Source: Gammaproteobacteria bacterium
Lineage (GTDB): Bacteria; Pseudomonadota; Gammaproteobacteria; SZUA-229
Reading direction: 5' to 3'
NCBI GenBank assembly: GCA_029881035.1
Contig: JAOUNI010000025.1
Coordinates: 1 to 36,821, forward strand
Length of the DNA stretch: 36,821 bases
The position numbers and the translations under genes were made by a program. The notes beneath the pieces are model-generated. The model ran no database searches. It was not told the DNA's origin and worked only from the letters and a program-made list of their open reading frames with translations. Positions 1 to 6,144 of the stretch are shown one piece after another (position 1 is the stretch's first letter; each line of letters begins with the position of its first letter).

Positions 1-118
1 GTCGCAGGTAGAAAAGTTGAGCGATTTATTGCGAAGCAATATGGAAACCGCTGCCGATTTGAGTGTGAAGCTGGTGGTGGATATTGGCGTCGGCAGCAAC
101 TGGGATGAAGCGCATTGA
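1..118 (+). CDS. polA: DNA polymerase I, C-terminal fragment
   Basis: Only the last 38 codons are in the window; the frame runs from base 2 and stops at TGA 116-118. The translated end reads ...VKLVVDIGVGSNWDEAH, which matches the highly conserved C-terminus of bacterial DNA polymerase I, whose last strand ends in D-x-G-x-G-x-NW-x-x-AH. The enzyme fills gaps in replication and repair. The polymerase active site lies upstream and cannot be checked. In many gammaproteobacteria polA is followed by a small RNA gene and then by engB on the opposite strand; here a two-gene cassette sits between them. Confidence 0.93.
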   Translation, partial: SQVEKLSDLLRSNMETAADLSVKLVVDIGVGSNWDEAH

Positions 119-932: not shown

Positions 933-2025
933 AAGTAAAAGTTATGTTTTTAGTGATTTTTTCGGCAATGTTCCATTGGGTTTTCTTGTTAGTAATATTA
1001 TCAGACCCATTTAAAACTGTTATTTTATTATTAATACAAAGCGTGTTTAAAACATCTTTTGCATGACTTGGCAAAAACTCCTCTATGATGCTGAAGTCTA
1101 CAATTTCAGCATTAGTCATTATTTTTTTGTTTTTTAGTTCTTTTTCTAAGTCTTTAGAAAACATATCAAATCTTGATGTGCCTTGTGTTCCAAAAATATC
1201 AACTTGCCCAGACTGTTGTACTTTAATATTTACCCCTTTACCGTCATCAGATTTTTTTAGTGCTATTTTGTTCATCAGTAGCATTCCTTCCCTATGCTTT
1301 GTTAAAAGAAAAATTGCATTTTTGCACTTTCCGCCATCAAGTAAAACAGGGCGCACATAGTCTAGGTTTAACTCTGATTTTATTTTGTTTTTAATGGATT
1401 GCATAAAATCATCTATACCATCATAGTTGGACATTCCTCTTGTTGTAAACTCCTCCACAAATTTTCTTGTTTTGTGCTCCTTCGCATAATCATTTTTGTT
1501 TGAAAATCTATAACCATGAAAAACAGGTGTAAATAAAAAAACTTCTGTGTATGGCAGTGCCATTAAATCCCTTAAATTATCAATTGTTACATCAGAATAT
1601 TTAAATGGGTCAAGGAAAAAGAATTTTGGAGTGTTACTGTTTTTAAATTTATGCAATATATTAGTAAGAGAGTTTTGGAAGTCTTTATTAGTTATAGGGT
1701 GTATGTTTATATATGAGTGAGAGATATTATTAAGTTGCAACTCCAGATCGTCAGTATATTCTTTGATTTTATCGTTAAATAATATATCGACTTCTAGGTC
1801 TTTCTGTTTCAAAACAGGGTTTGTTAAAATATATTGCACCTGCTTAATTAATACTAATGGACTACCATCTTGATTACCGTTTTTTCCAGCGCCACAGAAT
1901 AAATCAGCTATTAAACAACGCTTAAATGTTTGTAGTATTTTAGGCAAATAACCAGTTATATATTCTTCGTAAACTCTGACTTTAGCAGCTGTCAAGTCAT
2001 TTTGTTCAACAAAAAAATCACTCAT
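922..2025 (-). CDS. tcmP: Three-Cys-motif partner protein TcmP
   Basis: This 367-aa protein matches the TcmP family, defined by genomic pairing with the three-Cys-motif protein encoded just downstream. The sequence has the look of a class I SAM-dependent methyltransferase: DLFCGAG (41-47) as a glycine-rich motif I, an acidic strand end ILFND (81-85), and FFLDPFKYSD (136-145) resembling the motif IV Asp-Pro of nucleic-acid methyltransferases. A helical segment at about 295-350 could be a winged helix. A good ribosome site, AAGGA at about 2033-2037, supports the ATG at 2025. The gene overlaps its partner by 11 bp and is strongly AT-rich against its surroundings. Family assignment is fairly secure; methyltransferase activity is inferred from motifs only. 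Confidence 0.8.
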   Translation of the reverse strand: MSDFFVEQNDLTAAKVRVYEEYITGYLPKILQTFKRCLIADLFCGAGKNGNQDGSPLVLIKQVQYILTNPVLKQKDLEVDILFNDKIKEYTDDLELQLNNISHSYINIHPITNKDFQNSLTNILHKFKNSNTPKFFFLDPFKYSDVTIDNLRDLMALPYTEVFLFTPVFHGYRFSNKNDYAKEHKTRKFVEEFTTRGMSNYDGIDDFMQSIKNKIKSELNLDYVRPVLLDGGKCKNAIFLLTKHREGMLLMNKIALKKSDDGKGVNIKVQQSGQVDIFGTQGTSRFDMFSKDLEKELKNKKIMTNAEIVDFSIIEEFLPSHAKDVLNTLCINNKITVLNGSDNITNKKTQWNIAEKITKNITFTYDN

Positions 2026-2265
2026 TTTTCATCCTTAATTATATTGATCCTATTAATCATTAAATTAATAAATTAATGGGGCCAAGTCTTGCATTTTGCC
2101 TTGGCGCTGCAATGACTTAACTGATGTTTTTTTATTGTTGTTAGCATCATCCTTAAAAATCCCGTCCTTCTAAATGGTGGGGTATTTTGAATTAGGTTAT
2201 TTTTACGCTATCTGCGGGTAAATGGGAAGTGCTGGTTTGATTGTGAGTTGGATGGGCAGTTAATA
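2026..2265. other. AT-rich junction upstream of the tcmP cassette
   Basis: No gene is convincing here. Bases 2041-2075 are almost pure A/T and precede tcmP on the minus strand. A TATAAT hexamer occurs on the minus strand at 2043-2038, but it lies too close to the start codon to be its promoter. From about 2165 the sequence turns G-rich on the plus strand, which may mark the edge of the inserted cassette. Confidence 0.4.
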
Positions 2266-2297
2266 GGGGCAAAACGGTGGGATGCGGGTTTGCGGGG
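2266..2297 (+). other. Potential G-quadruplex motif
   Basis: Four G tracts of three or more occur on the plus strand at 2266-2269, 2279-2281, 2286-2288 and 2294-2297, with loops of 9, 4 and 5 bases. The longest loop exceeds the strict seven-base rule, so folding is possible but not certain. The motif lies about 50 bp upstream of the -35 element of the predicted small RNA gene. Confidence 0.4.
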
Positions 2298-2346
2298 TGC
2301 TGGTTGCACTTCGAGCGCCATTTTTCGACCATTTATCGAGAGTGTT

Positions 2347-2374
2347 TTGACTTCCGGGGTGATTTGTTTTTAAT
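2347..2374 (+). promoter_or_regulatory. Sigma70-type promoter of the predicted sRNA
   Basis: TTGACT (2347-2352) and TTTAAT (2369-2374) each match the sigma70 consensus at five of six positions and are separated by 16 bp. Transcription would start near 2381. No convincing coding sequence follows; instead a series of hairpins and a terminator does. Confidence 0.68.
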
Positions 2375-2380
2375 TAGGGG

Positions 2381-2508
2381 TGAGTCATTTTTGTGTTGCG
2401 CTGGTGTTCGGCGCGAGTCTGTTCCCTTTCATGGGTGGACTGTGACGGGGCTGGTTTCCCCAAGCTAGTCCCGTTTGTTGCCCGGTCGTTTTGGCCGGGC
2501 TTTTTTTT
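2381..2508 (+). ncRNA. Predicted small RNA in the polA-engB interval (Spot 42/ErsA position)
   Basis: A transcript of about 128 nt is predicted from a good promoter (2347-2374) to an intrinsic terminator (2480-2508). It can fold into several hairpins: GCGC 2398-2401 with 2411-2414; AGTC 2416-2419 with GACT 2438-2441, enclosing a CCC/GGG helix; an 8-bp stem 2445-2452 with 2467-2474 whose 14-nt loop exposes UUUCCCC (2455-2461); and the terminator stem. The gene lies on the polA strand just before the convergent engB gene. This is the location of spf (Spot 42) in E. coli and, to my knowledge, of ErsA in Pseudomonas, both Hfq-dependent regulators. The C-rich loop would be a natural seed for pairing with G-rich ribosome binding sites. 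Homology was not tested; the exact 5' end is inferred. Confidence 0.65.
2480..2508 (+). terminator. Intrinsic terminator of the predicted sRNA
   Basis: GCCCGG (2480-2485) pairs with CCGGGC (2495-2500), with a 9-nt loop, followed by eight T residues (2501-2508). The T tract makes it directional for the plus strand. It lies seven bases from the stop codon of engB, which is on the opposite strand. Confidence 0.85.
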
Positions 2509-2514
2509 GCTCGA

Positions 2515-3156
2515 TTATGCCTGTTCGTGTGTTTTTGCTGTTGCTGGCAGTTCCAGCCATTCATTCAGCTTGTTGACCAGTTGTTCCAGACCGATTTTGT
2601 CCAGGGACGAGAATATCTGGATGCTGGCATCGTAACCTTCGGTTTTTAACAGCTTTTTGCACTGGAGCAGTGCAGTGTTTTGAGCGCCACGCTTGAGTTT
2701 GTCTGCCTTGGTGAGCAGTATGTGAGCGGGCAGGCCAAAGTGCTGGCACCAGTCCAGCATCTGCAAATCGAATTCTTTGAACGGGTGGCGGATGTCCATG
2801 ATGATGACCAGGCCGCGGAGCACGTCTGTCTGTTCCAGATATTTCCCCATCAGCTTTTGCCATTCTTCCTTGACAGCCAGAGGCACTTTGGCAAAGCCGT
2901 AGCCGGGCAGGTCAACCAGGCGGCGCTTTTCGTCGAGTGCAAAGTAGTTGACCAGGCGGGTGCGGCCGGGGGTTTTGCTAATTTTTGCCAGTGTTTTGTT
3001 ATCGCACAGGGTATTGATCGAGCTGGATTTTCCGGCATTGGAGCGGCCAACAAAGGCAACTTCCATGCTTTCGCCCTGTGGGAACTGCTGGGTGGTGCCG
3101 GCGCTGATCAGGAATTTGGCTCGCCGGTAGTAATGATTGATGGATTGAGTGCTCAT
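2515..3156 (-). CDS. engB: Ribosome biogenesis GTPase EngB/YihA/YsxC
   Basis: This 213-aa TrmE-Era-EngA-EngB-Septin class GTPase acts in assembly of the large ribosomal subunit and is essential in many bacteria. Visible motifs are the P-loop GRSNAGKS (37-44), a G2 threonine region around TPGRTR (62-67), G3 DLPG (82-85) and G4 TKAD (149-152). Length is typical of the family. The gene is convergent with the predicted sRNA and divergent from the cytochrome c4 gene. Its upstream region 3157-3300 is shared with that gene. Confidence 0.96.
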   Translation of the reverse strand: MSTQSINHYYRRAKFLISAGTTQQFPQGESMEVAFVGRSNAGKSSSINTLCDNKTLAKISKTPGRTRLVNYFALDEKRRLVDLPGYGFAKVPLAVKEEWQKLMGKYLEQTDVLRGLVIIMDIRHPFKEFDLQMLDWCQHFGLPAHILLTKADKLKRGAQNTALLQCKKLLKTEGYDASIQIFSSLDKIGLEQLVNKLNEWLELPATAKTHEQA

Positions 3157-5394: not shown

Positions 5395-6144
5395 ATGTTT
5401 AAAAAAATATGGGGTTGGATACAGCGGTTTTCGTCACCCAAGCATTTTTACAGTATTTCCGGAAAGCTGATCCCATGGTTTGCTGTGCCTGCCGCACTGC
5501 TGGGTATCTACGGTTTATACATGGGCCTGTTTGTGGCGCCGACCGATTATCAGCAGGGTGAAAGTTACCGTATTATCTTTATTCATGTGCCCGCGGCCTG
5601 GATGTCGATGTTTATTTATGTAGTGATGGCGATATCAGCAGCCATTGGCATGATCTGGCAAATTAAACTGGCGGATATGATTGCGTCAGCGAGTGCACCC
5701 ATTGGTGCCTGGTTTACCTTCCTGGCGCTAGTTACCGGCTCACTCTGGGGCAAGCCGATGTGGGGTGCGTACTGGGTCTGGGATGCACGCTTAACCTCTG
5801 AATTAATTTTACTTTTTTTGTATTTTGGTTATATGGCCTTGCAGTCTTCGATCGAAGATCAGCGTACTGCCGATAAAGCCAGTGGTTTGCTGGCGATCGT
5901 CGGTGTGGTCAATATTCCAATCATTCATTACTCGGTGGAATGGTGGAACACCCTGCATCAGGGAGCCACGGTAGCGAAGTTTGATAAGCCTTCCATGCAT
6001 ATTGATATGCTAATCCCTTTATTGGTAATGGCGATTGCCGCCAAACTTTTTTATGCGGCGATTGTACTGATTCGAGCCAGAAATGAAGTGCTGTATCGTG
6101 AACGCAATCGTCAATGGGTTAGAGAACTGGTGGAAAAATTATGA
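5395..6144 (+). CDS. ccmC: Haem handling protein CcmC
   Basis: CcmC delivers haem to the chaperone CcmE on the periplasmic face. The 249-aa protein has six predicted membrane helices, the tryptophan-rich haem motif WGKPMWGAYWVWD (118-130), and periplasmic histidines H64 (in FIHVP) and H188 (in NTLHQG) at the positions expected for axial haem ligands. Its stop overlaps the ccmD start by 4 bp (ATGA). Confidence 0.95.
   Translation: MFKKIWGWIQRFSSPKHFYSISGKLIPWFAVPAALLGIYGLYMGLFVAPTDYQQGESYRIIFIHVPAAWMSMFIYVVMAISAAIGMIWQIKLADMIASASAPIGAWFTFLALVTGSLWGKPMWGAYWVWDARLTSELILLFLYFGYMALQSSIEDQRTADKASGLLAIVGVVNIPIIHYSVEWWNTLHQGATVAKFDKPSMHIDMLIPLLVMAIAAKLFYAAIVLIRARNEVLYRERNRQWVRELVEKL

Follow-up and report, generated by a model that had tools for sequence, protein, structure and literature searches.

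A small RNA gene in the polA-engB interval of a gammaproteobacterial contig and its relation to a class-wide RNA family

A real, previously unannotated small regulatory RNA gene is very probably present in the window, i.e. the whole stretch of 36,821 nucleotides analyzed here (positions 1 to 36,821, forward strand, of contig JAOUNI010000025.1; Gammaproteobacteria bacterium, SZUA-229, assembly GCA_029881035.1). The encoded RNA is best filed as a divergent member of a Gammaproteobacteria-wide polA-engB sRNA family. We do not file it as Spot 42, ErsA, sX13 or anti-hemB proper, since it fails the tests of each of these.

The RNA gene and its locus

The features of the gene and its neighborhood are collected in Table 1.

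Table 1. Features of the sRNA gene and its flanking genes (positions in the window).
Feature	Position	Strand	Basis
polA, 3′ end	2-118	+	Pfam DNA_pol_A match
Conserved box ACCATTTATCG upstream of the -35 element (consensus in the family: ACCNTTNRTCG), candidate activator site	2328-2338	+	30 family loci; putative function
-35 element TTGACT	2347-2352	+	sequence; kept in most family members
-10 element TTTAAT	2369-2374	+	found in each of the 30 listed family loci (collected by pattern)
sRNA gene, predicted transcript of 128 nt	2381-2508	+	MFE z-score -5.45; R1 and R2 matches
Hairpin 1	2397-2415	+	folding, alignment consensus
Hairpin 2, loop with UUCCCUU	2416-2441	+	folding, covariation, loop comparison
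Hairpin 3; the C-rich loop at its apex, UUUCCCCAAG (2455-2464), is the proposed seed	2444-2475	+	stem covariation; CCCCAA invariance
Intrinsic terminator, hairpin (2480-2500) plus U8	2480-2508	+	terminator scan, folding
engB (YihA/YsxC GTPase), convergent neighbor	2515-3156	-	same gene order in E. coli

The predicted RNA has a minimum folding energy of -57.1 kcal/mol, compared to a mean of -38.4 kcal/mol for shuffled sequences (z -5.45; 0 of 200 shuffles). It forms four hairpins, and hairpins 1, 2 and 3, as well as the terminator, each fold well alone. The terminator (2480-2500 followed by U8) is the strongest terminator-like site of the region. A preceding sequence-only reading had proposed about 128 nt of hairpin-forming, apparently non-coding sequence ending in a strong intrinsic terminator, and both parts of this proposal were upheld. 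It had also described a 14-nt loop exposing UUUCCCC. A C-rich loop indeed caps hairpin 3, but it is 10 nt long (2455-2464) and sits on a comparatively supported 8-bp stem; in the single-sequence MFE structure the stem extends to 14 bp and leaves a CCCC tetraloop. Overall, there is a high probability that the sRNA gene at 2381-2508 is real.

Since Spot 42 of E. coli is annotated with SpfP, a gene of this kind might, like spfP inside Spot 42, specify a small protein. This is scarcely credible here: no conserved small ORF was found across the family members, several of which have no frame of 12 codons or more, and a small ORF was ruled out as the gene product because no reading frame is common to them.

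The gene was expected to lie on the polA strand, right before engB. It does occupy the polA-side strand and adjoin engB, but engB is convergent, and therefore only 6 nt separate the end of the RNA gene from the engB stop codon. The minus strand shows no terminator-like site within positions 2000-3000, and read-through from engB would therefore be antisense to the sRNA. The interval itself had been correctly named as the site of spf in E. coli, where the order polA > spf < yihA is the same as around the window sRNA, and of ersA in Pseudomonas (PMC8575079).

The gene likewise lies between polA and engB as claimed, but a two-gene cassette (189-2025) intervenes and puts the polA end (118) about 2.25 kb upstream. 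The cassette consists of genes for a DUF5131 protein and a TcmP-like protein, which correspond to the PADLOC candidate defence pair PDC-M30 (PDC-M30A/B). The distance from polA to the -10 element is 88-94 nt in three same-genus loci, and the window exceeds this spacing by about 2.16 kb. The cassette is thus most simply regarded as an insertion, and the sRNA promoter as independent of polA. In five relatives (L018, L019, L020, L024 and L033) the same gap holds 1.4-4.2 kb of extra genes, and it looks like a repeated insertion site. The L018 gap contains an apparent HigB/HigA-type toxin-antitoxin pair, judged from reading frames only.

Conservation and promoter in close relatives

Loci of relatives were fetched via engB, and most were gathered with a pattern combining CCCCAA with TTTAAT/TTTACT. 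The same element was found downstream of engB in most of these loci, with conserved promoter, hairpins and terminator. RNAalifold analysis of alignment A1 (26 sequences including that of the window) gave a consensus of four helices, a structure derived from these same sequences. In A1, 96.8% of the cells are standard pairs, and 17 of the 28 pairs have changed on both sides; no shuffle reaches any of these measures, and sliding the pairing partners lowers pairing to 28-46%. The compensatory stem changes that the sequence-only reading had suggested looking for in relatives are thus found (17/28 pairs, two-sided, in 26 sequences). The CCCCAA of the hairpin 3 loop is invariant in the 26 family sequences, most of which were collected by that motif; the invariance of CCCCAA and of TTTAAT/TTTACT is therefore partly due to selection of the loci. 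The covariation of the stems is not explained by this motif-based collection. In one same-genus genome (G005; locus L017, about 5640-5840) the promoter is kept and the sRNA body is replaced by unrelated sequence, which means that the RNA can be lost or that the contig is chimeric.

The two hexamers of the promoter are separated by a 16-nt spacer, and this layout places the predicted transcription start site at about 2381. A two-hexamer promoter with this spacing had been proposed from the letters, and both the sequence and its conservation in relatives confirm it. A promoter scan passes over TTTAAT, since it accepts a -10 element only if the second base is A. TTTTGAC is kept in most relatives, and a TTTAAT or TTTACT -10 element in all those listed, the 30 family loci used for this comparison having been collected by a pattern that requires it. 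Alignment columns -41 to -32, counted from the -10 element, are conserved across the 30 loci even where TTGAC is lost; several members of the window's family lack TTGAC and retain the upstream box. The promoter of this family consists of TTTTGACTT...GTCTTTAAT plus the upstream box ACCNTTNRTCG and is sigma-70-like. The conservation of the box suggests that a regulator may bind it.

These observations bear on the possibility that the region is simply a polA/engB terminator with fortuitous hairpins and no independent RNA. Terminators always fold well, and the part of the window matched by several Rfam models is largely terminator, but the promoter, the loop sequences and all three stems ahead of the terminator have been maintained, with compensatory changes, and the promoter stays attached to the RNA though 1.4-4 kb of other genes part it from polA in the window and in several relatives. 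We therefore consider this explanation very improbable.

The wider family and the proposed action of the RNA

Two covariance models, R1 (26 sequences) and R2 (68 sequences), were built, both including the window sequence, which they match at 2390-2508 with 89.9 and 72.4 bits, respectively. Among 369 genomes sampled across the Gammaproteobacteria, R1 matches 139 (E 1e-3) and R2 182 (E 1e-4). In the wider alignment A3, which was fitted to the model, 97.2% of cells are paired and 27 of 28 pairs show two-sided changes. Direct scanning of engB loci of supposedly negative genomes revealed further members in 8 of 30 (E about 1e-4 or better), since the class-wide searches use strict filters. The one genome presumed to represent Pseudomonadaceae (G214, family f160) had neither polA close to engB nor a match to R2.

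In 32 of the 39 class-wide loci that were read, with flanks of about 4 kb on both sides, the RNA is adjacent to polA or engB; three more contain the cytochrome c4 gene, the usual follower of engB. Outside the class, R2 gave four weak matches (about 32 bits), which set the background of the model; neither polA nor engB was found beside them in the stretch fetched. The window gene shows the traits of the family, i.e. location on the polA-side strand, a convergent engB, four covarying hairpins and a CCCC loop in hairpin 3. Its location, promoter and terminator, together with conservation and covariation, accordingly support the suspicion that it is a new member of a positionally conserved sRNA group, which turns out to be larger than first assumed and to extend to about half of the sampled Gammaproteobacteria.

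Several variants of the common arrangement were observed. In L163 (4001-4747), L133 (1500-2257) and L138 (1500-2438), the polA-engB interval holds four to five copies of the sRNA in tandem. Family-like RNAs with no polA or engB found nearby occur in L101, L106, L111, L160 and L161, some in pairs, and hairpin 3 is missing from the shorter RNAs of L106 and L111. In L086 a c-di-GMP-I riboswitch (2037-2121, minus strand; 77.9 bits) lies about 450 nt from the sRNA.

The hairpin 3 CCCC is present in 64 of 68 members. A CUCCCU loop in hairpin 2 is common, not universal (58/68); hairpin 2 of the window RNA lacks it and has UUCCCUU. Just before hairpin 1, the element GAAC(C/T)-N15-17-GTC was found in 65 of 96 class-wide members outside the window's family (f1), mostly ending 1-5 nt before the model start, compared to 0.4 on average in shuffled controls and 0.9% in other 80-nt segments of the loci. 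This element represents the sigma-E/AlgU promoter type. Most of the wider family is thus probably under the control of the envelope-stress sigma factor. No sigma-E element (GAACTT...GTC) was found upstream of the window gene, and a search for this promoter type across f1 showed that nearly the whole of this family lacks it, with a possible overlap in L066 only. Loss of RpoE as the reason was ruled out, since RpoE is encoded in the genome. Control of the window's family appears to have shifted to the sigma-70-like promoter with the upstream box.

We regard it as probable that the RNA is a trans-acting sRNA of the polA-engB family, transcribed from its own promoter, whose C-rich loop pairs at ribosome sites to block translation. 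According to this proposal, an RNA of about 128 nt would be made from its own promoter and would stay highly structured; the C-rich residues UUUCCCCAA, unpaired in the loop of hairpin 3, would pair with G-rich stretches at ribosome-binding sites, perhaps assisted by the UUCCCUU of hairpin 2, and the pairing would block translation of several mRNAs, on the pattern established by experiment for sX13 and ErsA. The C-rich loops of sX13 repress mRNAs with G-rich motifs, some of them at the ribosome site, without Hfq (PMC3771888). ErsA, which is sigma-22 dependent, pairs with the algC ribosome-binding site, with Hfq (PMC6321483). If the analogy holds, UUUCCCCAAG (2455-2464) would be the part of the window RNA that acts on its targets. 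Both hfq and RpoE are encoded in the window's genome. The GGGG motif used by sX13 is absent near the hfq start in this genome, so the sX13 target hfq is not carried over. No publication on the CCUCCCUGAG motif turned up in a literature search.

The RNA could instead mainly sequester a protein, e.g. an RNA-binding regulator, rather than pair with mRNAs. Its highly structured nature, the repeated similar loops and the tandem copies in some genomes would fit such a role, but the loops carry CCC or CCCC, not the GGA of CsrA/RsmA sponges, and sX13 and ErsA work by base pairing (PMC3771888, PMC6321483). Protein sequestration is thus unlikely, and mRNA pairing is the reading adopted here.

Comparison with named RNAs

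No Rfam model matched the window RNA at its gathering score. With E values up to 10 allowed, the scores obtained included those of anti-hemB (28.5 bits), SorX (26.3), PrrF (22) and sX13 (16.5); the models of Spot 42 (RF00021) and Pseudomon-1/ErsA (RF01719) gave no match even at E 10. This agrees with the remark, made before any search with these two models, that the sequence is not obviously that of Spot 42. Furthermore, an ErsA northern probe (PMC7565897) compared with 80 genomes and all loci gave one match with two mismatches, judged to be due to chance.

The named models nevertheless converge on the same loci elsewhere in the class. Within 61 kb of family loci, nearly all Rfam matches with E<1 fall on the family RNA and belong to anti-hemB, sX13, Pseudomon-1/ErsA, ar14 or SorX, the sole exception being the c-di-GMP riboswitch. 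The anti-hemB model (RF02837), searched independently, matches 168 of the 369 genomes, of which 20 exceed its cut-off, and the matches largely coincide with R1 loci. The sX13 model (RF02232) scores >100 bits in three genomes of one family, beside polA, and remains below its cut-off at several R1 loci of other families (best 48.3 of 50 bits). Conversely, R2, which was built without sX13, scores 25-28 bits (E 3e-6 to 2e-5) at the coordinates of these sX13 genes themselves and 38.7 bits at a related gene. The Pseudomon-1/ErsA model gives 37.1 bits for the L133 (G223) copy and 30.3 bits for the L115 copy, the Rfam cut-off being 50. Because the anti-hemB, sX13 and, weakly, ErsA models match the same loci, these RNAs look like branches of one family, and they appear to belong with the window RNA to a single family, the link of ErsA being weak. 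The alphaproteobacterial ar14 model scores 31-40 bits on members in L133, L136, L098 and L079, which may indicate a link to alphaproteobacterial C-rich sRNAs.

The likeness to sX13, anti-hemB and ErsA might also have arisen by convergence of unrelated sRNAs that occupy the same gap and were selected for C-rich loops: the similarity to ErsA and sX13 is modest, and C-rich loops arise in unrelated sRNAs (PMC3771888). Against this, the gap, strand and hairpin order are common, the CCUCCCUGAGCGGG loop is shared by many members, the sigma-E promoter is placed alike in most families, and the models of one RNA find the others. Convergence is therefore rather doubtful, and common descent is preferred here. 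The evidence is evenly balanced on a fuller scenario, in which an ancestral sigma-E-controlled sRNA with C-rich loops, located in the polA-engB gap of early Gammaproteobacteria, would have given rise to sX13, anti-hemB and ErsA and to the RNA that about half the class carries without annotation, while the window's family would have been rewired to a sigma-70-like, activator-dependent promoter and would have dropped one seed loop.

The R2 model finds a polA-engB RNA in about half of the sampled Gammaproteobacteria, in many of which the gene is missing from the annotation. Rfam families listed without a clan are now linked, with a common envelope-stress input predicted, and scattered sRNAs of virulence and metabolism become comparable. 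The window's family offers a test case for a regulator that changes both promoter and seed.

Spot 42 occurs in Enterobacteriaceae and Vibrionaceae; it is repressed by cAMP-CRP and acts, in an Hfq-dependent manner, on carbon metabolism. Its gene (spf) shares the interval and orientation of the window RNA. R2 scores 17.7 bits at E. coli spf, mostly on the terminator, and no homology with Spot 42 is therefore claimed; given also the lack of a Spot 42 model match at E 10, this candidate was rejected as unsupported. ErsA of Pseudomonas lies in the polA-engB intergenic region (PMC8575079), a position common to it and the window RNA. Its sigma-22 promoter (PMC6321483) resembles that of most of the wider family, whereas the window's family lacks the sigma-E element.

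Anti-hemB (Burkholderia RNA 7, ncS04), which is strongly expressed in B. cenocepacia biofilms (PMC5688073), resembles the window's family in the architecture of hairpin 2 and the terminator. The window copy differs from it in lacking the CUCCCU loop and scores 28.5 bits (E 6.5e-5 in 301 nt), below the cut-off of 49.5. By this absence and by its scores against anti-hemB (28.5 bits) and sX13 (16.5 bits), the window sequence is among the more divergent members. sX13 of Xanthomonadaceae, whose gene lies directly downstream of polA (PMC3771888), resembles the window RNA in having three stem-loops, C-rich loop sequence and an intrinsic terminator. The window RNA differs from sX13 in its score (cut-off 50) and its sigma-70-like promoter; of its three stem-loops one carries CCCC and one CCC, the sX13 trait being 4C or 5C in each.
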